Shown here piece by piece: positions 365-26,947 of a DNA stretch of 38,126 nucleotides (the first letter of the stretch is position 1; each line of letters begins with the position of its first letter). Source of the DNA: a virus; IMG/VR virus record IMGVR_UViG_3300024518_001209, positions 1-38,126 of that record. The stretch is one strand, 5' to 3'. The position numbers and the translations under genes were made by a program. Under the pieces are notes generated by a model that had not been told where the DNA came from, ran no database searches, and saw only the letters and a list, made by a program, of their open reading frames with translations.

Positions 365-1906
365 ATGAATGAGACAATAGTAAAGCATCTTAGCTTCGGT
401 AAGGATGCAAAAAGTAAAATATACGAAGGTATAGAAAAACTCACTAGAGCCGTTAGTTCCACTTTAGGGGCTAGCGGTAAGTGTGTAATAATGGAAGACG
501 ACCGAGGAAATCCACAGATAACTAAGGACGGAGTAACAGTAGCTAATTCAGTTATATTGTTAGATCCAGTAGAGAACATGGGAGCTAAACTCCTAAAAGA
601 AGCAGCAAGGAAAACAGTGACAGAAGCAGGAGACGGAACGACGACTGCCACGGTTTTAGCGCATGCAATACTAGAAGAAGCTTATAAAGCGCAAAAATCG
701 GAATCGCCGCGGGAGCTAAAAGAAGGAATTAATTTGGCTGTTAACAAAGTGGTGCAATATCTTGAGAAAGTAGCCTTACCAGTACGAGGTGAAAAAATAA
801 AACAAGTAGCCACAATATCAGCCAATAACGATGCAGAACTAGGTCAATTGATAAGTGATGCATTTAAAGCTGTAGATGAGACCGGGATCGTTATGATGGA
901 AACAAACGATTCTCCGGATACAGTTATTGAAAAAATAGAAGGAGTACAATATGAAGCTGGATTTCAAAATTCACATTTTGTAACACATAAAGATAGAGAT
1001 ACAGCAGAATTAGATAATCCGGTCGTTTTAATATTAGATAATAAAATAGAGAATATTAGGAAAATACAAAGTGTATTAGAATATGTTATACAAGAAAAAG
1101 AATCTTTATTAATTATAGCTGATGTAGATCCCCAAGTAATGACTGCATTAGCAATGAACAAAGTAAAAGGTAATATTAAAGTAAATATTATAGATGCTCC
1201 TGTTCACGGAATTAACCGTAAAGAAATTTTAGATGATTTAGCAGCTCTAACTAATGCAACAATAATTAATGAAAATCTAGGAGATGACATTGATTTAATA
1301 AGTATTGATGCTTTGGGTAGGTGTAAGAAAGCTATTAGTAATAGAATAGAAACTATATTACAAGTAGAAGAAATGTCTGAAGAAGTAGATACACTAATAA
1401 CTAACTTACGCGATAAAATAGAATCAACATCTAATACTAATTTAAAGTTAAGATACGAAAAAAGATTGTCAAGATTAACTGGAAAAGTAGCTATTGTAAA
1501 AGTAGGTGCTAATTCTGAAGTTGAACTTAAAGAAAAGAAAGATAGAGTAGAAGATGCTATTTGTGCTACAAAAGCCGCGATTAAAGAAGGTATAGTACCA
1601 GGAGGTGGTATTGCTTTGCTAAATGCAGCAGATCATATAAAACCTAAATCTCCCGCAGAAAAGATTTTATTAGAAGCTATTAAAGCTCCTTATAAAATAA
1701 TTTTAAATAATGCTGGTATAATAAATTATGAACCTCCAATAGTAAAAGGAAAAGGATTAGATGTGGTTACAGGTAAAACGGTGAGTATGGTAAAGTCCGG
1801 AATAATAGATCCTTTACTAGTTACTAAAAGTGCTCTACGTAACGCGGCTTCAGTAGCTACTACTATTTTATCCACTGATTGTGTAATTAACAATGTGAGA
1901 GCATGA
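365..1906 (+). CDS. groEL: Phage-encoded chaperonin GroEL (Hsp60)
   Basis: ATP-dependent group I chaperonin of 513 residues, slightly short of the bacterial ~545. Visible signatures: ITKDG (52-56, Asp55 corresponds to E. coli Asp52), the nucleotide-binding GDGTTTATVL (89-98), ATISANND (149-156), RVEDAICATKAAIKEG (394-409, Asp397 at the ATPase Asp398 position), IVPGGG (410-415) and DPLLVTKSALRNAASVATT (482-500). All ATPase acidic residues are therefore present. The usual TLGPKGR is TLGASGK here, and the C-terminal GGM tail is missing, the protein ending at NNVRA. The stop overlaps the groES start (ATGA), so the two are coupled. Its role is probably folding of phage capsid or other large virion proteins; whether it cooperates with or replaces host GroEL is unknown. 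Identification is very secure. Confidence 0.97.
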   Translation: MNETIVKHLSFGKDAKSKIYEGIEKLTRAVSSTLGASGKCVIMEDDRGNPQITKDGVTVANSVILLDPVENMGAKLLKEAARKTVTEAGDGTTTATVLAHAILEEAYKAQKSESPRELKEGINLAVNKVVQYLEKVALPVRGEKIKQVATISANNDAELGQLISDAFKAVDETGIVMMETNDSPDTVIEKIEGVQYEAGFQNSHFVTHKDRDTAELDNPVVLILDNKIENIRKIQSVLEYVIQEKESLLIIADVDPQVMTALAMNKVKGNIKVNIIDAPVHGINRKEILDDLAALTNATIINENLGDDIDLISIDALGRCKKAISNRIETILQVEEMSEEVDTLITNLRDKIESTSNTNLKLRYEKRLSRLTGKVAIVKVGANSEVELKEKKDRVEDAICATKAAIKEGIVPGGGIALLNAADHIKPKSPAEKILLEAIKAPYKIILNNAGIINYEPPIVKGKGLDVVTGKTVSMVKSGIIDPLLVTKSALRNAASVATTILSTDCVINNVRA

Positions 1907-2163
1907 GAGCGGTTGGAAATTATTTAATCATAAAACCTATAGATCCAGCTACTGTAGAAACAACTGGAGGATTAATTTTAGGGAAAAATCAAAGAAACGA
2001 TATAAGATATCAAGAAGCTAACGTATTGAGTGTTGGAGCAGAAGTAAAAGGAATAAAAAAGAAAGATAAAATATACTTCGATATAGCTAGTGGTAACTTA
2101 ATAGAAATAAATAAAAAGATATATTCAGTTATAAGAGAGTCTGACGTGATCATAGTTTTATGA
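1903..2163 (+). CDS. groES: Phage co-chaperonin GroES (Hsp10)
   Basis: An 86-residue Cpn10-fold protein, expected to form the heptameric lid of the GroEL chamber. It starts in a 4-bp ATGA overlap with groEL. Family features are the N-terminal strand GNYLIIKPIDP (5-15), the mobile-loop region with TTGGLIL (20-26; bacterial GroES has GGIVL here), the central ANVLSVGAEVKGIKKKDKIYF, and the closing strand YSVIRESDVIIVL. It is about ten residues shorter than bacterial GroES, mainly around the roof loop. Direct coupling to groEL and the retained mobile loop indicate a dedicated partner. It is distinct from the larger GroES-like protein at 9339-10022. Confidence 0.93.
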   Translation: MRAVGNYLIIKPIDPATVETTGGLILGKNQRNDIRYQEANVLSVGAEVKGIKKKDKIYFDIASGNLIEINKKIYSVIRESDVIIVL

Positions 2164-2606
2164 GAAAATTAACTCCTTCTGACTTAAAAAGTTTAAATTT
2201 ATTTAAACATTATAGGATTATACGTAAATGGGCCAGTAAAACATGTAATATTAAAGAGGCAGACCTTGAACTATTAATGTATTTAGATGCTTTAGATTTA
2301 TTTACCAAACAAGATTTTAAAGAAGGAGTGTATTCTTATAGTTGGGATAATAGAAGATGGAACAGATTATTAAAAGAAGATTGGATAGTTGTTTGGAGAA
2401 AGAGAAATAGAACAACCCAAAAATATCACATTTACAAAACATCTTTTAAATTTAAACAACTATTAAATAGAATATATAAAATAATTTTAGGGGAGGAAGA
2501 TATTCCTACTACACAAAAAAGTAATAAAATAATGAAGGGTGACAGCTACATGAATAAGGTTTTAAGTCATTCTATTTTAAACATAAACAAAGATAAAACT
2601 AGATAA
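2160..2606 (+). CDS. Putative winged-helix protein (148 aa)
   Basis: A 148-residue basic protein starting in an ATGA overlap with groES, so it is translationally coupled to the chaperonins. Residues about 32-100 resemble a winged helix-turn-helix: helices around DLELLMYLDALDLF and NRRWNRLLKEDWI, then a basic beta-hairpin wing (VVWRKRNRTTQKYHIYKTS). The pattern is MarR-like, but this is a secondary-structure reading, not a motif identification. No membrane segment or catalytic residues are visible. It could be a late-gene regulator or a DNA-binding packaging or virion component. The last ~30 residues are Lys/Asn-rich and probably disordered. Confidence 0.75.
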   Translation: MRKLTPSDLKSLNLFKHYRIIRKWASKTCNIKEADLELLMYLDALDLFTKQDFKEGVYSYSWDNRRWNRLLKEDWIVVWRKRNRTTQKYHIYKTSFKFKQLLNRIYKIILGEEDIPTTQKSNKIMKGDSYMNKVLSHSILNINKDKTR

Positions 2607-3336: not shown

Positions 3337-3506
3337 TGGGCTTGGATGATCTAAAGTTATATTGTTTAAATATAACTTCGTTCACTATTGCAAGTTTCGA
3401 TTGGTTAGAACCCGTGTTAAAAATAACTTTACTTCTAGTAACTATTGGGTATACTGTACATAAGTGGTGGGTTATGAAGAAAGGAAAAAATGAGGCAAAT
3501 AAATAA
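3336..3506 (+). CDS. Candidate small holin, one membrane segment (56 aa)
   Basis: A 56-codon ORF whose ATG overlaps the preceding stop by one base. Its last 17 bases overlap the amidase gene. The product has a polar N-terminus (MGLDDLKLYCLNITSF), one hydrophobic segment at about residues 26-45 (PVLKITLLLVTIGYTVHKWW) and a basic tail (MKKGKNEANK). Size, single transmembrane helix, Lys-rich cytoplasmic tail and direct coupling to an endolysin are what is expected of a small class III-type holin or a pinholin. The holin role is inferred from topology and context. A second holin-like protein lies at 5945-6400, so this one could instead be an accessory or antiholin. Confidence 0.65.
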   Translation: MGLDDLKLYCLNITSFTIASFDWLEPVLKITLLLVTIGYTVHKWWVMKKGKNEANK

Positions 3507-3903
3507 AATAATTGTACATTGTTCAGCTACCAGGGAAGGTGAAAATATTCCTGTAGAAACCATTAAAAAATGGCATGTAGATGGAAGAGGATGGAGCGAT
3601 ATAGGTTATCATTTCTATATTGACATATATGGAGAAATACACAAAGGTAGAGATATAGCCAAAATCGGGGCTCACGTAAAAGGACATAATAGAAATTCAA
3701 TAGGAGTTTGCTATTGCGGAGGCGTAGAAGCAGATGGTAAGACCCCGAAAGATACTAGATATGATTGTCAAAAAGATAGTTTATTGGCAGTTTTAAGAAC
3801 ATTAAAAGCTATGTATCCAGAAGCTGTTATACACGGCCATCGAGATTTTTCAAACAAAGCATGTCCATCTTATGATGCGACAGAAGAATATAAACACTTA
3901 TAA
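3490..3903 (+). CDS. N-acetylmuramoyl-L-alanine amidase (endolysin, T7 lysozyme-like)
   Basis: A zinc amidase of the Amidase_2/PGRP fold that cuts between N-acetylmuramic acid and L-alanine in peptidoglycan. Its 137 residues are a bare catalytic domain, close to T7 lysozyme (151). All expected active-site positions are visible: zinc ligands His10 (IIVHCSAT), His117 (HGHRD) and Cys125 (KACPSYDA), plus Tyr40 (IGYHFYI) and Lys123, matching T7 His17, His122, Cys130, Tyr46 and Lys128. There is no signal peptide, so release to the periplasm would need a holin; the candidate immediately upstream overlaps this gene by 17 bp. There is no separate wall-binding domain, as is usual for endolysins of Gram-negative hosts. 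Whether it also inhibits an RNA polymerase, as in T7, cannot be told. Confidence 0.95.
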   Translation: MRQINKIIVHCSATREGENIPVETIKKWHVDGRGWSDIGYHFYIDIYGEIHKGRDIAKIGAHVKGHNRNSIGVCYCGGVEADGKTPKDTRYDCQKDSLLAVLRTLKAMYPEAVIHGHRDFSNKACPSYDATEEYKHL

Positions 3904-5741: not shown

Positions 5742-5948
5742 ATGAAAAAATCTAAACATGGATATAAAAGAAATTCTCCAGATGTTAACAATGAATTTAA
5801 CATTATAGAAGGATGTCGTATAACTATGAAAGATGTAGATTTTAAAGTTTTGGGTATAGATAATAATGGTTACGCAAAAGTAATGTATCCAGGTCATGAT
5901 TATCATTTTCCAAATGCAAAATGGGTTAAAGAAACGCCTATAAAATGA
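5742..5948 (+). CDS. Small hypothetical phage protein (68 aa)
   Basis: A 68-residue soluble protein starting three bases after the previous stop and ending in an ATGA overlap with the holin-like gene. The N-terminus is basic (MKKSKHGYKR). The centre (ITMKDVDFKVLGIDNNGYAK) and the end (MYPGHDYHFPNAKWVKE) look like a small beta-barrel or an SH3-like fold. I believe similar ITM-DV-F-VLGID / MYPG-Y-FP proteins occur in Bacteroidota phages, but no function is known to me. Confidence 0.7.
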   Translation: MKKSKHGYKRNSPDVNNEFNIIEGCRITMKDVDFKVLGIDNNGYAKVMYPGHDYHFPNAKWVKETPIK

Positions 5949-6400
5949 AGGATAAAAAAAAGAAAAAGTTTAGAGATACTAAAGTAGGGATTTTCTTGAA
6001 AGATAAAGCCCCTACTATTTTAGATACTGTAGGTGAGTTTTTACCAGATCAAGGAGGATTAGGTATAGTAAAAAACCTTATATCAGGTGATAGTACTATT
6101 AATCCTAAAGATAAAGAAACCGCTTTAAAACTTTTAGACCAAGATATAGCAGAGATGGATAATATCTCTGATAGATGGAATAGTGATATGAAATCTGATT
6201 CATGGCTTAGTAAAAATACTAGACCAATGACACTCATTTATCTAACTTTATCCATGACAATATTTATAGTATTAGATTCTACAGTTATACTAGAAATAAA
6301 TACAGGTTGGGTTTCTTTATTAGAAGCTTTACTTATAACGGTTTATGTAGCGTACTTTGGATCTAGAGGCGCAGAAAAAATAACAAAAATTAAAAAATAA
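5945..6400 (+). CDS. Holin-like membrane protein (GTA/3TM holin type)
   Basis: A 151-residue protein with a Lys-rich N-terminus, a charged helical middle (residues 50-85, NPKDKETALKLLDQDIAEMD) and a membrane end. WLSKNTRPMTLIYLTLSM (87-104) starts the first transmembrane helix (about 94-111), and VSLLEALLITVYVAYFGS (123-140) is a second, followed by RGAEKITKIKK. The W-S-NTRP-T-L entry and the Y-FG-RG-EK exit match what I know of the gene-transfer-agent/3TM phage holin family. A charged helical region of this length before the membrane part is also usual there. It would place or trigger pores for the amidase. It is 2 kb from the amidase gene, so the lysis genes are interspersed with others. 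Confidence 0.75.
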   Translation: MKDKKKKKFRDTKVGIFLKDKAPTILDTVGEFLPDQGGLGIVKNLISGDSTINPKDKETALKLLDQDIAEMDNISDRWNSDMKSDSWLSKNTRPMTLIYLTLSMTIFIVLDSTVILEINTGWVSLLEALLITVYVAYFGSRGAEKITKIKK

Positions 6401-8840: not shown

Positions 8841-8857
8841 AAATTAAATTTAATCAA
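8841..8857 (+). promoter_or_regulatory. A/T-rich leader (TTTAATCAA-ATG type)
   Basis: The bases before the ATG at 8858 (aaattaaatttaatcaa) closely match the groEL leader at 344-364 and the bases before 26336. No Shine-Dalgarno sequence is present. It is probably a ribosome-loading leader; a promoter function cannot be excluded. Confidence 0.4.
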
Positions 8858-9109
8858 ATGAAAATTAAAGAAGAACAATTAACTAAAATTAAATCACAAC
8901 AAGAACAATTAAACAATTTAATAAACCAAATTGGTATATTAGAAGCTAACAAACATGGGTTACTCCATGAAATGGCTGGAGTAAACCAAGATGTAGAAAA
9001 GTTTAAAAAAGAATTAGAAGAACAATACGGTGCTGTTAATATTAACTTAGAAGATGGTACTTATACTAATATTGAAGTAGACCAAGCAGAACCAGCATTA
9101 GCAGAGTAA
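8858..9109 (+). CDS. Small coiled-coil protein (83 aa)
   Basis: Residues 1-56 are a nearly uninterrupted amphipathic helix with Gln/Lys/Glu-rich heptads (EEQLTKIKSQQEQLNNLINQ, then EKFKKELEEQY), so a coiled-coil dimer or oligomer is expected. The remaining ~27 residues (GAVNINLEDGTYTNIEV) form a short acidic beta tail. Recurrent small coiled-coil proteins of this type occur next to fibre and packaging genes in marine phages; I know of no demonstrated role. It could be a fibre chaperone or assembly factor. It lies behind an A/T leader, two bases before the next gene. Confidence 0.75.
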   Translation: MKIKEEQLTKIKSQQEQLNNLINQIGILEANKHGLLHEMAGVNQDVEKFKKELEEQYGAVNINLEDGTYTNIEVDQAEPALAE

Positions 9110-9339: not shown

Positions 9340-10022
9340 TGCAAGCTTTATATAAATTCCTCGTTGAGCCTATTGGAGAAAGATATAACAACGTTATACA
9401 AGTAGGTGATAAACAACTTATTATCAACACTAAAATAGAAACGTTTAAAGCGGTAAATAAAGTAGCTAAGGTAACACAGATACCTAAAAACATTATTACT
9501 AATATAAACGTAGGAGATATAGTTATTATTCATCATAATGTCTTTAGAAAATTCTATGACATGAAAGGTCGAGAAAAGAATAGTAAGTTATATTTTAAGG
9601 ATAATAAATATTTTGTAGAATTAGATCAAATATATTTATATTACCAAAATAATAAATGGAATACTTTAGGAGATAGATGTTTTGTTAAACCCTTAGCGGA
9701 TCAAGTACAGAAAGGTATACTAAGATATAGTAACTCTCATTTAAAGTCCTTAGGAATAAAAGAAAATAACATTGTCTATTATAAACAGAGCAGAGAGTTT
9801 GAATTTGTAGTAGACAATGAATTATTATATTGTATGAAATCAAAAGATATATTAGTGAAAGATGAACGTCAAGGAAACGAAGAAGAGTATAATCCAAGCT
9901 GGGCAACTAGCGGTGAAAGAACTAATAAAGGTTGCTCAAGAACCGATTGTGGACACGGGCGAAGATGTGTCTGCGGATCGATTAAAGAATGCAGCTGCAA
10001 CAAAAAAGTTGGCAATATTTGA
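9339..10022 (+). CDS. Large GroES-like (double Cpn10-fold) protein with Cys-rich tail
   Basis: A 227-residue protein built from two GroES-like units. Unit 1 (about 4-100): YKFLVEPIGERYNNVIQVGD, then KVAKVTQIPK, NVGDIVIIHHNVFRKF and KYFVELDQIYLY. Unit 2 (about 110-174): LGDRCFVKPLADQVQKGILRY, then LKSLGIKENNIVYYKQ and YCMKSKDILVK. Both follow the Cpn10 order (entry strand with a PI/PL turn, loop, LK-x-GD/EN-strand, closing MxxxDIL-type strand). The C-terminal ~50 residues carry six cysteines (199, 204, 210, 212, 218, 220) in CSRTDCGHGRRCVCGSIKEC and may bind zinc; this tail is encoded in the region overlapping the next gene. Its position before the terminase suggests an assembly chaperone or a structural use of the fold. 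Fold assignment is by pattern only. Confidence 0.7.
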   Translation: MQALYKFLVEPIGERYNNVIQVGDKQLIINTKIETFKAVNKVAKVTQIPKNIITNINVGDIVIIHHNVFRKFYDMKGREKNSKLYFKDNKYFVELDQIYLYYQNNKWNTLGDRCFVKPLADQVQKGILRYSNSHLKSLGIKENNIVYYKQSREFEFVVDNELLYCMKSKDILVKDERQGNEEEYNPSWATSGERTNKGCSRTDCGHGRRCVCGSIKECSCNKKVGNI

Positions 10023-10140
10023 TGCATTTGAAATTCTTCATAGAATAGAAGAAGAAGAAAACTTATTAGAAGGTATAGTTAAAGAAGAAAAGAAAGAAGA
10101 AAGATCTTTTAAAGGTTTTGCCGAAGGGAGAAGTAAATGA
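9862..10140 (+). CDS. Small helical protein before TerL, possible small terminase (92 aa)
   Basis: A 92-residue helical protein whose first 161 bases overlap the GroES-like gene in another frame. Its stop overlaps the TerL start (ATGA). The strongest segment is VAQEPIVDTGEDVSADRLKN (23-42) followed by AAATKKLAIFDAFEILHRIE, then a Lys/Glu-rich tail (EEKKEERSFKGFAEGRSK). This helical layout directly before TerL makes it the best small-terminase candidate in the window, but no HTH DNA-binding motif is evident and it is smaller than most TerS proteins. The overlap start at 9862 is the only upstream ATG; a GTG at 9907 could shorten it by 15 residues. Confidence 0.7.
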   Translation: MNVKETKKSIIQAGQLAVKELIKVAQEPIVDTGEDVSADRLKNAAATKKLAIFDAFEILHRIEEEENLLEGIVKEEKKEERSFKGFAEGRSK

Positions 10141-12362
10141 GTAACGATCAAACACTTTGGAAAGAAGTAAAAGATGTTGTAAATCCTTCTATTTTAAAAA
10201 AAGAAAACCGTTTAAAAAGATGGAAGTACGGTTATAATGAAGATTATGATTTTATAGTAATATCTAAAACAGGTAAAATTGGACAAGTTATTGAGATTCA
10301 GAATCTTCGCATTGCATTACCAACAGCAGATGAATGCTTTAAACGAAGCGAAGACAAAGAGAAGCAATATTGGGAAAAACAAGAATATCCCAAAGAATTA
10401 GCTAGAATTAAAAGTAGATTTGACTGGGAGGAATATCCAAATGATTTTAAAGAAAACTGGTACGACTATATTGACAATGAATTCAAAAAACGAGACGAGG
10501 GTTATTGGTTCTATAATAATGGTAATCCTACTTATATTACTGGTACTCATTACATGTACTTGCAATGGTCAAAGATTGATGTCGGATCAGCTGATTATAG
10601 AGAAGCCAATAGATTGTTCTATATATTCTGGGAAGCATGTAAAGCTGACACCAGATGTTATGGAATGTGTTACCTTAAAAACAGACGGTCTGGTTTCTCC
10701 TTTATGTCATCGGCAGAACTTGTTAACCAAGCAACAATATCAAGTGATGCAAGATTTGGTATATTATCCAAAACAGGAGCTGATGCTAAAAAAATGTTTA
10801 CAGATAAAGTTGTTCCAATATCCGTTAATTATCCATTTTTCTTCAAGCCGATCCAAGATGGTATGGATCGCCCTAAAACTGAATTAGCTTATAGAGTACC
10901 TGCCTCAAAATTAACTAGAAGGAAATTAGATGATAATGTTAAATTAAAGGAATTAGCAGGACTTGATACAACAATTGATTGGAAAAACACGGGGGACAAC
11001 TCTTACGATGGTGAGAAATTAAAAATATTAGCACACGACGAATCAGGAAAATGGGAACGACCCGACAATATATTAAACAACTGGAGAGTTACAAAAACTA
11101 CATTAAGATTAGGCCGAAGAATAGTAGGCAAGTGTATGATGGGCTCAACTTCAAACGCGTTAGATAAAGGTGGAAACAACTTCAAAAAATTATACTATAA
11201 TTCAGACGTTACTCAAAGAAATAGAAATGGACAAACAAGTTCGGGACTCTACTCTCTTTTCATCCCTATGGAATGGAACTTCGAAGGATTCATGGATACT
11301 TTTGGATCACCTGTATTTTTTACACCAAAAAATAAAACAATCGGAATCGATGGTCTCCCAATTACAGTCGGAGTCATTGAGCACTGGGAAAATGAAGTAG
11401 ATGGATTAAAAGCTGATCCGGATAGTTTAAATGAATATTATCGTCAATTTCCTAGAACAGAGCAACATGCTTTTAGAGATGAAACTAAAGATAGTTTATT
11501 TAATTTAGTAAAAATTTATGAACAGATAGATTATAACGAAGATATAAATAATAGAACAAACATTACACAAGGTAGTTTCATGTGGAAGAATGGAGTCAAA
11601 GATACAGAAGTACAATTTGTTCCTACTAGAAATGGTAGATTTAAAATATCTTGGGTTCCACCTAAAAATCTCCAAAATCGAGTAATTATAAAAAATGGGG
11701 TTAAACATCCTGGCAACGAACACGTTGGGGCTTTTGGGTGCGATAGTTACGATATTAGTGGTACTGTTGATGGTCGCGGATCTAAAGGAGCACTTCATGG
11801 TTTAACTAAGTTTTCTATAGAAGATTCTCCTCCTAATCATTTTTTCCTAGAATATATTTCTAGACCTCCCACTGCAGATATATTTTTTGAAGATGTTTTA
11901 ATGGCTTGTGTTTTTTACGGAATGCCTTTATTGGCTGAAAATAATAAACCTAGATTACTTTACTATTTTAAACGAAGAGGATATAGAGGGTTTAGTATTA
12001 ATAGACCAGATAAGATTTGGAATAAATTATCTGTAACTGAAAGAGAGATTGGTGGAATACCTAACTCTAGTGAAGATATTAAACAAGCTCATGCAGCAGC
12101 AATAGAAGCATATATCAACGAATATGTAGGATTACTAAAGGATGGATATGGAGATATGTATCACCAAGCAACTTTAGAGGATTGGTTAAATTTTAATTTG
12201 AATAATAGAACAAAACATGATGCATCCATTAGTTCAGGGTTAGCAATTATGGCTTGTAATAAAAACAAATATAAACCCAATGCAGAAAGAATTATAACTC
12301 CTATGAATTTAGGTTTTAAAACCTATGATAACACAGGATACTTATCAAAAATTAATAGATAA
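10137..12362 (+). CDS. terL: Terminase large subunit (TerL)
   Basis: A packaging ATPase and nuclease of 741 residues that cuts concatemeric DNA and pumps it into the prohead through the portal. It is longer than the common ~450-600 because of an N-terminal extension (1-120). Visible blocks: YWFYNNGNPTYITGTHYMYL (123-142); Walker A-like YLKNRRSGFSFMSS (179-192); Walker B ILAHDES (297-303, Asp301/Glu302); coupling motif MMGSTSNALDKGG (334-346); RNase H-type nuclease with GAFGCDSYDISG (531-542, Asp536 and Asp539) and a late KHDAS (693-697, Asp695). The Walker A is the Arg-rich variant with Gly185-Phe-Ser. The NNG-PTYITG and KNRR-GFS motifs are what I associate with crAss-like and Bacteroidota podovirus terminases. 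It is coupled to the upstream small gene and followed by the portal gene three bases later. Confidence 0.95.
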   Translation: MSNDQTLWKEVKDVVNPSILKKENRLKRWKYGYNEDYDFIVISKTGKIGQVIEIQNLRIALPTADECFKRSEDKEKQYWEKQEYPKELARIKSRFDWEEYPNDFKENWYDYIDNEFKKRDEGYWFYNNGNPTYITGTHYMYLQWSKIDVGSADYREANRLFYIFWEACKADTRCYGMCYLKNRRSGFSFMSSAELVNQATISSDARFGILSKTGADAKKMFTDKVVPISVNYPFFFKPIQDGMDRPKTELAYRVPASKLTRRKLDDNVKLKELAGLDTTIDWKNTGDNSYDGEKLKILAHDESGKWERPDNILNNWRVTKTTLRLGRRIVGKCMMGSTSNALDKGGNNFKKLYYNSDVTQRNRNGQTSSGLYSLFIPMEWNFEGFMDTFGSPVFFTPKNKTIGIDGLPITVGVIEHWENEVDGLKADPDSLNEYYRQFPRTEQHAFRDETKDSLFNLVKIYEQIDYNEDINNRTNITQGSFMWKNGVKDTEVQFVPTRNGRFKISWVPPKNLQNRVIIKNGVKHPGNEHVGAFGCDSYDISGTVDGRGSKGALHGLTKFSIEDSPPNHFFLEYISRPPTADIFFEDVLMACVFYGMPLLAENNKPRLLYYFKRRGYRGFSINRPDKIWNKLSVTEREIGGIPNSSEDIKQAHAAAIEAYINEYVGLLKDGYGDMYHQATLEDWLNFNLNNRTKHDASISSGLAIMACNKNKYKPNAERIITPMNLGFKTYDNTGYLSKINR

Positions 12363-15996: not shown

Positions 15997-17553
15997 ATGA
16001 GTTTAAATCCAGCGTTGGGTCCAAATTTGGAACCAGCTCAGAAGCGAATGGCGTTAGCCACTAACTATTTGTCTTTTACAGATGGGGATAACGATTTCGC
16101 ACAGCAATATTTACCTGAGCTCTATGAGCAAGAGGTAGAAAGATATGGTAATAGAACTATTGCCGGATTCTTAAGAATGGTTGGCGCTGAAATGCCAATG
16201 ACATCGGACCAAGTTGTTTGGTCTGAACAAAATAGATTACACGTAGCTTATGAAACGTGTGAAGTAATAGATGATACTACTATTAGAGTAAGCATTGATC
16301 CTGACGTTAGTGCCGCTGGCGGTGCTGTTGGAAGCAAAGAATGTGCTATTAAAATTAACAACACTTTAGTTGTTTATGGAAATGGGACAACTGGTGCTGG
16401 TCAAGGTAAGACTATGAAAGTATTAGTAACAGCTGCTCCTGGTAATTACCAAGGTGGTGGTGCTGGTGTAACTAGAACATGTGATGTAACTGTTGCTTGT
16501 TATGAAGCGAGTGGTTTAACCACAGGCGCTGCTACTCCAGGTGAATTTGATGGATCTGGATCTTCAGGTGGATTAAATTCTGCTGTTGCAGTATTCGTTT
16601 ATGGTTCTGAATGGGAAAAAGGGTCTAATACAGATGCTTTAGCTTCTATTGAGCCTGATTTCACACAGTTTAGTAATTCTCCAATAATCATAAGAGATAA
16701 GTTTGAGATCAATGGATCTGATACTGCTCAAATTGGTTGGGTTGAAGTTGCGACTGAAGACGGAACATCTGGTTTTCTATGGTATTTAAAATCTGAATCT
16801 GAAACAAGATTAAGATTTGAAGATTATATGGAAATGGCGATGGTTGAAGGTCAATTAGCCACTGCTGGTTTAGGTGCAGGTTCTGTAGGGAACATTGCTC
16901 TTGGGAATGCAGCTATGAGTGGTCAAAAAGGTACGCAAGGTTTATTTGCTGCTATTAAAGATAGAGGTCATGAATATCAAAACTTCGCTGGTACTGGCGG
17001 TGGTAATGATGCTTTAGATGATTTTGATTCTATTTTAGCTCAATTAGATTTTGAAGGTGCTATTGAAGAAAACATGATTTTCTGTAATAGATCTTTAGCT
17101 TTAGCAATTGACAATATGGTTGCTAATGTAAATGGATCAGCTCAAGATGGAGTTAATGGTGCATCTTATGGATTATTTGAAAATGATTCTAATATGGCAT
17201 TAAACTTCGGGTTTGATGGTTTTAGAAGAGGTTCTTATGACTTCTATAAAACTGACTGGAAATATCTTAATGATGCTTCTACTCGTGGTTTAGCGAAAGA
17301 TATCGAAGGTGTATTAGTACCTGCTGGTACTTCAACAGTGTACGATCAAATGTTAGGTTCTAATATTAGACGTCCATTCTTACACGTAAGATATAGAGCT
17401 TCAGAAGCTGATGACAGAAGACTTAAGTCTTGGGTTACAGGTTCTGTAGGTGGAGCTTATACATCATCTTTAGATGCTATGGAAGTACACTTCCTATCTG
17501 AAAGATGTTTAGTTACTCAAGCAGCTAATAACTTTATGTTATTCACTACTTGA
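15997..17553 (+). CDS. Major capsid protein (HK97 fold)
   Basis: A 518-residue protein of the size and place expected for the major capsid protein: after the scaffold, before the neck genes, with its own strong terminator. The N-terminal arm (LNPALGPNLEPAQKRMALAT) leads to an E-loop-like segment (EVERYGNRTIAGFLRMVG). An inserted Gly/Thr-rich beta domain lies at about 130-200. SPIIIRDKFEINGSDTAQIG (228-247), FLWYLKSESETRLRFEDYME and a C-terminal run (GSNIRRPFLHVRYRASEADD, LDAMEVHFLSERCLVTQAAN) are typical of Bacteroidota podovirus MCPs. No prohead protease gene is visible nearby, so maturation cleavage is uncertain. Codon choice is richer in GGT/GCT than in its neighbours, consistent with high expression. 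Confidence 0.88.
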   Translation: MSLNPALGPNLEPAQKRMALATNYLSFTDGDNDFAQQYLPELYEQEVERYGNRTIAGFLRMVGAEMPMTSDQVVWSEQNRLHVAYETCEVIDDTTIRVSIDPDVSAAGGAVGSKECAIKINNTLVVYGNGTTGAGQGKTMKVLVTAAPGNYQGGGAGVTRTCDVTVACYEASGLTTGAATPGEFDGSGSSGGLNSAVAVFVYGSEWEKGSNTDALASIEPDFTQFSNSPIIIRDKFEINGSDTAQIGWVEVATEDGTSGFLWYLKSESETRLRFEDYMEMAMVEGQLATAGLGAGSVGNIALGNAAMSGQKGTQGLFAAIKDRGHEYQNFAGTGGGNDALDDFDSILAQLDFEGAIEENMIFCNRSLALAIDNMVANVNGSAQDGVNGASYGLFENDSNMALNFGFDGFRRGSYDFYKTDWKYLNDASTRGLAKDIEGVLVPAGTSTVYDQMLGSNIRRPFLHVRYRASEADDRRLKSWVTGSVGGAYTSSLDAMEVHFLSERCLVTQAANNFMLFTT

Positions 17554-24657: not shown

Positions 24658-26325
24658 ATGGCTTATACTGAAGAAGTAAAATACTTTAATTCGTTTTGGT
24701 TAAAAAAAGTAGAAGATGTCTCAGGTGATGCAGTGTGGCCAGGGGTACCTTATAATGACGCAGATCAAAGTGAATGGCCTGTATATCCTAACGCTGCTAC
24801 TATATCTTCTAATAATTGGTACATAGAAGAATGTAGAATTAAAGGTGGTTTTAATGAAAGTTTTTATAATCAAGGAGCAAGAGCTTATATAAATGAAGAA
24901 AATATTATACAACAAACTAGAGGTAGTTCATTAATTCATTCTGGCATTTACAATTCTCGAACTGGTATAAATCAAACTAACGTATTTTCATTAGCAAATC
25001 CTATTACAAAATCTTTAGATCCTCATAATGGTACAGTTCAAAAACTAATAGCAGAAGATACTAACTTATTAATATTTCAAGAAGATAAAGTTAGTCAAGC
25101 TTTAATAGATAAAGATGCTATATACTCAGCAGAAGGAAAACCTTTACAAACAACTTCCAATGTGGTTATAGGACAAATAGTACCATATTTAGGTAGATAT
25201 GGAGTAGGTAAATTTCCTTTTTCTGTAGCTAGATTTGGATTTAGAAAGTATTTTGTTGATCCTATAAGAGGTGTTGTGTGTAGATTATCTAGAGATGGTA
25301 TAACAGAAATATCTAATTACGGAATGAAAGATTTCTTTAGAGATCAACTTTCTTTAATTAATACTATTACACGTAATCATTATGAAAAATGGGAATTTTA
25401 TAGTGCTGACGTAAGTCCTGCAGTTAATTTAACAGAGTTTTATGTTCTTGGAGATATTTGTAAGATACCTATAGGTAGTAAAATAACTAATTTAACAGGT
25501 AATATTAATATAGAAACAAATTCTACTGTTATACAAGTAGAGGAAGCAGGATCTCCAAATATAATAAAAGTGACGGTAGATGTGCCTATAACACCTACTG
25601 CGGAAGGTAATTTTAAATATTCTTATAAACAACAAATAATAGGAGGATGGGATAATTGGAATAAATATTATACTACGAGTTTTCAGTCAGTTCCAGCGTG
25701 GTTAAATAATGATCCATACATCCGTGATTATAATACTTTATCTTTTGATGATAGTATTAAAGGATGGGTAAGTTTTTATGATTATAAACCTTTGTTTATA
25801 GATAGTATTAAAGGAATAAATATTACTTTTAACAATACAGAAGTTTGGCAACATTACAGAGGAAATGATGATAATTATGTTAACTTTTATGGATATACCA
25901 ATGGAGCTACAGTTACTTTTATTTTAAATAACAATCCATCAGTAAAAAAAGTATTTAAAACTATAAACTATGAGGGAGATAATGGATGGTATGTTCCTAT
26001 TATAGCAAGTAGTCCTACGCAAATGGATAACAGTCTTTCTTATATTGATTCAGCTAATGTTATACTAAGTTATGACGAAGGGATATACACTGATCCTGAC
26101 ACTGGAGTATCTCAAAGATGTGGTTTTGATAGAAAAGAAAACTTATATGTAAGTAACATAGTGAACGGTTCTCAAATTCGACCAAATGAAATTTTAGGTG
26201 GAGGAACTATGACTGGAATTAAAGGTTATTATACTACAGTTACTTTAGCTACGGATAATACTACTGATGTAGGAGGTAAGAAGATTTTATGGAGTGTAGG
26301 AAGTGAAATAGTACAATCATCTTAA
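24658..26325 (+). CDS. Nozzle/tail stabilisation protein, C-terminal part of the nozzle, 555 aa
   Basis: Begins two bases after the 1414-residue gene. Residues about 60-200 carry the propeller-closing pattern: GGFNESFYNQGARAYINEEN, LIAEDTNLLIFQEDKVSQAL, IVPYLGRYGVGKFPFSVARF and GFRKYFVDPIRGVVCRLSRD, then GITEISNYGMKDFFRDQ. In Bacteroidota podoviruses I know these as the late part of one large nozzle polypeptide (YG-K-P-SFA, RYF-D-RG-V-RLSRDG-TEIS-YGM-DFF). The rest (250-555) is beta-rich and Asn/Tyr-rich. So this appears to be the second half of a split nozzle, folding together with the upstream product. A separate stabilisation protein is the alternative. Confidence 0.75.
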   Translation: MAYTEEVKYFNSFWLKKVEDVSGDAVWPGVPYNDADQSEWPVYPNAATISSNNWYIEECRIKGGFNESFYNQGARAYINEENIIQQTRGSSLIHSGIYNSRTGINQTNVFSLANPITKSLDPHNGTVQKLIAEDTNLLIFQEDKVSQALIDKDAIYSAEGKPLQTTSNVVIGQIVPYLGRYGVGKFPFSVARFGFRKYFVDPIRGVVCRLSRDGITEISNYGMKDFFRDQLSLINTITRNHYEKWEFYSADVSPAVNLTEFYVLGDICKIPIGSKITNLTGNINIETNSTVIQVEEAGSPNIIKVTVDVPITPTAEGNFKYSYKQQIIGGWDNWNKYYTTSFQSVPAWLNNDPYIRDYNTLSFDDSIKGWVSFYDYKPLFIDSIKGINITFNNTEVWQHYRGNDDNYVNFYGYTNGATVTFILNNNPSVKKVFKTINYEGDNGWYVPIIASSPTQMDNSLSYIDSANVILSYDEGIYTDPDTGVSQRCGFDRKENLYVSNIVNGSQIRPNEILGGGTMTGIKGYYTTVTLATDNTTDVGGKKILWSVGSEIVQSS

Positions 26326-26335
26326 ATTAAATCAA

Positions 26336-26947
26336 ATGGAAAAAGAATTGCAAGAAATAAAAGAACAAGTATTGACTGCTCCATTAACTAAAGAAGAGTC
26401 TAAACAACAATTTATAGAACTTACTAAACAATGGGATATAAAGCATACATTCGACTTTGATGAAGCTTGGGAAATAGGTCAACAGTTAAGAAGAAGAAAA
26501 GATTTTAGGGAAAAAATTAAAGAAGTTGAAAAAGAATTAAGTGAAAATCCAATATCTATGACAAGTGAAGAAATGACGACTGCTAATCCAGTTAAACATT
26601 CTTTTGCAGAAGGATTATGCGTGAGAGAAATATATAATCCTGCTAATGAAATATTAATAACTGCAATACATGCTCAATCTCATCCTTTCTTTTTACTTAA
26701 AGGCGAAATGTCTATTTTAACACATGATGGAATAGAGCATATAGAAGCTCCACATTACGGAATAACTAAACCTGGAGTTAAACGTGTAATATATACACAT
26801 ACACCATGCAACTTTATTACAGTGCACGCTACTGAATTAACGGACCCAGATGAAATAGTTGAATCTGTAACAGCTAAAACATTTGAAGACCCAAGAATAA
26901 CTGAAGAAGATATGAAATTAATTAACCAATTAAAACTAACGATATGA
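26336..26947 (+). CDS. Cupin-fold protein (203 aa)
   Basis: Residues 1-75 are helical and charged. Residues about 85-168 form a single RmlC-like cupin barrel: EGLCVREIYNPANEILITAI, HAQSHPFFLLKGEMSILTHD, IEAPHYGITKPGVKRVIYTH and NFITVHATE. Candidate metal-site residues sit in the expected order: His112 and His116, Glu124 after KG, then the PG turn (146-147) and His155, with His164 on the last strand. Motif 2 is complete enough to suggest a bound metal, though the exact ligands are uncertain. The C-terminal tail is acidic. It could be a virion enzyme, a sugar-binding module or a structural barrel. It stands between the nozzle and internal-protein genes and is coupled to the next by ATGA. Confidence 0.75.
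   Translation: MEKELQEIKEQVLTAPLTKEESKQQFIELTKQWDIKHTFDFDEAWEIGQQLRRRKDFREKIKEVEKELSENPISMTSEEMTTANPVKHSFAEGLCVREIYNPANEILITAIHAQSHPFFLLKGEMSILTHDGIEHIEAPHYGITKPGVKRVIYTHTPCNFITVHATELTDPDEIVESVTAKTFEDPRITEEDMKLINQLKLTI

Follow-up and report, generated by a model that had tools for sequence, protein, structure and literature searches.

Near the start of a 38,126-base IMG/VR virus record, two overlapping genes encode a GroEL relative and a GroES relative. With somewhat better than even confidence, we read them as a working group I chaperonin that is adapted to the phage, comes with a lid similar to gp31 of phage T4, and folds phage proteins. The record as a whole, here called the window, is classed as linear, and linear records are often fragments. 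A first-pass annotation of the letters had already proposed a dedicated phage chaperonin and lid; conservation, purifying selection and the existence of a viral clade uphold that core, but the rarity attached to it does not hold and the nozzle as a client is doubtful.

Both genes are real, as their products score above the curated Pfam cut-offs: the GroEL has 190.5 bits to Cpn60_TCP1 (PF00118, cut-off 34.3) over the full-length domain, and the GroES 42.6 bits to Cpn10 (PF00166, cut-off 21.1). The GroEL also passes NCBIfam PRK12849 (476.7 bits, cut-off 352) and matches phrog_5725 (E=4.9e-138). However, it falls under the threshold of the NCBI equivalog TIGR02348 (461.7 vs 582.1 bits), and the GroES falls under NCBI's GroES cut-offs, so that both are divergent; judged by its sequence, the window GroEL is a divergent relative, other than the standard bacterial protein. 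The AF2 model of the GroEL (pLDDT 80.3) aligns with E. coli GroEL 1mnf over 506 residues (VIA-align Z 39.4), and that of the GroES (pLDDT 93.8) with Thermus Cpn10 1wnr (Z 11.3) and with the gp31 entries 2cgt (Z 9.6) and 1g31 (Z 8.8).

Table 1. Features of the window discussed in the text (E. coli numbering for GroEL residues).
Feature	Position	Strand	Basis or remark
GroEL-like group I chaperonin, 513 aa	365..1906	+	PF00118, phrog_5725, AF2 model
LGASGK replacing LGPKGR (E. coli P33 to A)	464..481	+	clade alignment
Shortened loop, E. coli 424-440, site of inter-ring E434	1634..1657	+	clade alignment
Shortened segment, E. coli 459-477, site of E461, S463, V464	1715..1756	+	alignment, AF2 model
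GroES/Cpn10-like co-chaperonin, 86 aa	1903..2163	+	PF00166, AF2 model
Mobile loop of GroES, contact tripeptide in GGLIL	1945..2013	+	loop-length alignment
Site of missing GroES roof hairpin	2035..2067	+	hairpin-length alignment
148-aa ORF	2160..2606	+	phrog_17028 (E=1.7e-7); joined to groES by second ATGA (2160-2163)
Second co-chaperonin-like protein, 227 aa	9339..10022	+	phrog_13932; upstream of terminase
Terminase large subunit	10137..12362	+	phrog_6681 (E=3.8e-163); context marker
Capsid candidate, a virion structural protein of 518 aa and 55.5 kDa	15997..17553	+	phrog_13704 (E=3.8e-81)

The comparisons below use the window and the 80 nearest IMG/VR loci among the matches listed, which are 63-85% identical to the window GroEL; these 81 loci were picked as nearest relatives and are not independent observations. 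The ATPase positions, described as kept on first reading, are indeed all present (D52, D87, T89-T91, D398, G414-G416 and D495 in E. coli numbering), and D52, D87, T89-T91, D398 and D495 are invariant in 81/81 clade members. The sole ATP-site residue changed is P33, the proline of LGPKGR that is lost in LGASGK: the column holds alanine in all 81 members and proline in the 80/80 bacteria having a residue there. The GGM tail is likewise absent, as claimed, from the last 30 residues in every clade member, and present in 74 of 79 bacteria. The groove that binds substrate and lid is altered throughout the clade (L234Q in 80/81, V264M in 81/81, V263A in 74/81).

The coupling of the two genes by ATGA, a four-base overlap at 1903-1906, was correctly noticed at the outset. 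In each of the 81 loci groES lies directly downstream of groEL with an overlap of 1-23 bases. The same order is found in viruses like MW202828 (69/69 with a GroES found, often with a gap between the genes) and, with overlap, in elemo-like loci (14/14 with a GroES found); bacteria have the opposite order, with groES first in all 73 cases where a GroES was found nearby. Against the nearest relative, L002, a Nei-Gojobori count gives dN/dS of ~0.10 for GroEL and ~0.13 for GroES, values that are rough because synonymous changes approach 1 per site; this count places both genes under purifying selection. Since the overlap occurs in all members and dN/dS is ~0.1, the pairing is not due to chance.

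The 148-aa ORF that follows groES has homologues in 79/81 clade loci, with a four-base overlap in 65, and elemo-like and MW202828-like loci keep it too; on visual inspection its product looks like a winged-helix regulator. A AATTTAATC[AC]AATG-like stretch, a possible translation signal, lies across or just 5' of three gene starts (354-367, 8847-8860 and 26325-26338); with up to 2 mismatches, 8 such sites were counted, a number that exceeds chance only modestly, as 5 of 100 shuffled versions attain it.

The lid was initially described as having a mobile loop but being shortened. Both points stand, and they can now be placed: the loop is intact and exceeds that of E. coli by 3 residues; the shortening is located in the roof hairpin, which goes from 17 residues to 8. 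The mobile loop has 23-24 residues in 81/81 members (E. coli 20, T4 gp31 23), with leucine at contact position 25 in all members and at position 27 in 78 of them. The GGLIL motif at the contact position is found in some bacteria too, and thus it is not diagnostic. Leucine 25 was also tried as a marker of single rings, GroES I25L being functional with GroEL-SR (PMC5575113); it occurs in 10/70 bacteria and was dropped as specific evidence. The roof hairpin has 8 residues throughout the clade, where E. coli has 17 and gp31 has 10. Short versions of 8-12 residues also occur in a few of the bacterial GroES compared, so this hairpin is not required by the GroES family. The window GroES is basic (pI 9.3) and the putative capsid protein acidic (pI 4.4).

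The resemblance to gp31 is one of architecture, a likeness distinct from any claim of descent. Like the window lid, gp31 is missing the roof, has a longer mobile loop and lacks Tyr71; its chamber is 8% larger, and the loss of the roof loops together with the long mobile loops is held to enlarge it for the 56-kDa capsid protein gp23 (PMC6318259). Unlike the window lid, gp31 is encoded alone and works with the host GroEL, whereas here a phage GroEL adjoins.

The most telling changes concern the regions where two GroEL rings meet, a loss that escaped the first-pass annotation. In E. coli, the inter-ring contacts are K105-E434 and R452-E461, with S463 and V464 (PMC5575113, PMC8292379). The loop of E434 shrinks from 15 residues to 8 in 80/81 clade members, while bacteria have 13-17. 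The segment that carries E461-V464 goes from 17 residues to 11-12 in 79/81 members, bacteria having 15-18; alignment columns 462-464 are gaps in the entire clade, and AF2 models no helix in the stretch between 449 and 463. The alignment near 461-471 is uncertain residue by residue, while the shortening itself is certain. With both of the regions that supply the salt bridges shortened, the canonical double-ring interface is predicted to be unable to form, and the phage chaperonin probably acts as single rings or forms ring pairs of a non-canonical kind. Such a ring need not be idle: human mHsp60, single-ring and without both inter-ring salt bridges, functions with its lid Hsp10 (PMC8292379), and GroEL-SR functions with weakened lids (PMC5575113). 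The parallel with mHsp60 has its limit, as mHsp60 lacks the salt-bridge residues, whereas the window GroEL has whole segments shortened.

Could the pair nevertheless run an ordinary double-ring GroEL/GroES cycle, with other contacts replacing the lost ones and the changes being sequence drift only? We regard this as unlikely, albeit the strongest of the competing explanations. The fold matches double-ring GroEL overall (Z ~39), and the chaperonin of phage EL, although strongly altered, still makes double rings, which separate with ATP and pair via a different interface (PMC7185714), with a 1:1 subunit register (PMC5934643); since EL forms another kind of double ring, a chaperonin that has lost the canonical contacts is not bound to be single-ringed. 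However, drift would have to account for salt-bridge regions that are short in 79-80 of the 81 members, keep their length in bacteria, and stay mostly nearer bacterial length in two related phage groups.

Besides the loss of the inter-ring elements, the first-pass annotation missed a second co-chaperonin-like gene, at some distance from the pair. Its product matches phrog_13932, 'co-chaperonin GroES' (E=2.1e-20), and its C-terminal domain aligns with the bacterial GroES profile at Prob 93.8, the mobile loop being absent. The N-terminal domain is strongly conserved and reaches only hhalign Prob 7 against bacterial GroES, too low to show in this half the second Cpn10 domain expected of a two-domain, Cpn20-like co-chaperonin; a search by sequence gave no PDB match to the protein. 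The orthologue in phi38:1 scores above the Pfam cut-off for PF00166 (E=2e-6), and a second match to this family, below the cut-off, is seen in 17/24 clade records. A homologue of the gene is present in 44/45 IMG/VR records with a clade GroEL, the exception being a 12.9-kb fragment. It lies within ~270 bases of the projected terminase start in 114/114 loci examined, and immediately upstream of the terminase in Panino, phi38:1 and elemo. Relatives of the protein share a conserved tail of the GNEEEYNPSWA type, and the window ORF adds ~36 Cys-rich residues beyond it, in an overlap with ORF 9862-10140, which is read in a different frame. Internal stops that appeared in the relatives were set aside, as the alignment had overrun their natural stops: most end near 201 aa, and the overrun region is that of the Cys-rich tail of the window.

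This second Cpn10-like protein may, tentatively, act as an alternative or mixed-in lid component. A full version of this idea, a self-contained single-ring chaperonin with two lids, one roofless with one domain and the other a two-domain Cpn10-like protein, is a rather doubtful proposition; here the roofless lid would be made with GroEL and the two-domain protein with the packaging genes. If true, the ring could take in a range of virion proteins by mixing its lids or alternating between them.

How would the favored phage-adapted chaperonin work? With the groES start lying within the 3' end of groEL, ribosomes that complete GroEL could go on to start GroES by translational coupling. The GroEL, with its group I fold and catalytic residues in place, would form seven-membered rings that bind and hydrolyze ATP, acting singly or pairing non-canonically. 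The lid would bind it by the mobile loop, in which the GGLIL motif is present, and the second Cpn10-like protein might join as a lid component. Without a roof and with a longer loop, the lid would leave the chamber larger and open at the top, which would suit a capsid protein close to the usual size limit. Taken together, a self-sufficient phage folding chamber is plausible.

The clients originally suggested were the 518-residue capsid protein and a 1,414-residue nozzle, with computed masses of 55.5 and 154 kDa. For a cage of the GroEL-GroES type the ~56-kDa gp23 is already slightly over the limit (PMC6318259); the nozzle, far above it, is a doubtful client, and size speaks against its encapsulation and in favor of the capsid protein, which is plausibly the better candidate, a guess from size only. 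Against the size argument, the EL chaperonin has been reported to fold beta-galactosidase (PMC5934643).

The two proteins might not form a closed system, and a mixed machine would place the phage lid on the host GroEL, or a host lid on the phage GroEL. There is the precedent of gp31 (PMC6318259), which the phage lid resembles in roof and loop length. Yet the overlap of groEL and groES is kept in every clade member and the apical groove of the GroEL is changed clade-wide (L234Q, V264M, V263A), two facts that point to a matched pair and make the mixed machine improbable. Lower still is the chance that the GroEL mainly holds one phage protein independently of any lid, as proposed for EL and endolysin. 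EL, OBP and AR9 are reported to be active without a co-chaperonin (PMC9598537) and the window does contain an amidase-type endolysin gene (3490-3903), but those systems are described as having no co-chaperonin, while the lid gene of the window is conserved, coupled to groEL and maintained by purifying selection. The endolysin gene and a holin-like gene (5945-6400) are both downstream of the chaperonin genes.

With regard to the origin of the matched pair, a quick tree with sampled bacterial GroELs sets the window clade on a long viral branch (99*) outside them, and the closest bacterial GroEL found is ~42% identical at most. The MW202828-like group joins the clade with support of 94, not starred. 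A placement of the clade as an early branch from the Bacteroidota is compatible with the AU test when two viral sequences nested in Bacteroidota are allowed in (p-AU 0.226); a p of 0.011 had arisen with these two forced out, and the claim against a deep Bacteroidota origin was therefore dropped. The terminase is closest to that of MW202828 (62.9% identity), followed by the Flavobacterium elemo phages (45%), and its further relatives are from phages of Cellulophaga, Tenacibaculum and Maribacter; these similarities suggest that the host is probably a member of the Flavobacteriia (marine) or of nearby Bacteroidota. The 38,126 bases of the window gave no tRNA and no Rfam matches.

The phylogeny thus gives a deep viral clade in place of a recent host clade with identical features, and the key residues are kept in the relatives; recent host transfer is rejected on identity and tree. 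That the genes were passively acquired from the host in recent times, with no phage-specific role, is next to negligible: the terminase relatives do infect Flavobacteriia and a deep origin near Bacteroidota fits the AU test, but the best bacterial identity is low, the viral branch is long and well supported, the deletions are clade-wide and the gene order is reversed.

The pair was at first thought to be uncommon, and this view has to be given up. GroEL relatives occur in 289 of 50,697 public phage records, and a scan of IMG/VR found at least 554. As for both genes together, they are annotated side by side in elemo phages and near each other in Calle_1, they have been reported for Maribacter phage Panino (PMC11590407), and PMC7185714 mentions some phages with both, citing Marine et al. 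2017. GroEL-GroES pairing in such phages is already known and is not rare. The crAss-like phage cr111_1 (L092) has a GroEL and, nearby, a separate gene annotated 'putative 10kDa chaperonin', in which no PF00166 match was found at E 0.01. Measured against the papers cited here, with the virioplankton chaperonin study of Marine et al. 2017 as the exception, the new points are the reversed order, the inter-ring shortening, the roofless lid with its longer mobile loop and the second co-chaperonin-like gene.

Among the known systems, elemo, Panino and Calle_1/phi38:1 come nearest, with both genes and the second co-chaperonin-like gene just upstream of the terminase; elemo also shares groEL followed directly by an overlapping groES. 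Their GroELs are, however, only 38-39% identical to that of the window, Calle_1 has cpn10 before groEL with one gene between, and elemo keeps a 17-residue 459-477 segment in 13/14 cases. E. coli GroEL-GroES has the group I fold, the catalytic residues and the mobile-loop contact motif in common with the window, which differs in its reversed order, missing GGM tail, short inter-ring regions and roofless lid. The chaperonins of EL, OBP and AR9 are GroEL relatives from phages too, and their rings pair in an altered manner (PMC7185714, PMC9598537), but they are far more distant (EL is 28% identical over 82% of the query).

The characterized phage chaperonins, EL, OBP and AR9, are reported to be lid-free, and the characterized phage lid, gp31, borrows the barrel of its host. 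A phage system that has both, with a barrel that has lost its inter-ring contact regions, would offer a natural test case for how single-ring chaperonins release lid and client, a question so far addressed with the engineered GroEL-SR and with mitochondrial Hsp60. IMG/VR contains many members of the clade, and with them a wide choice of natural variants.
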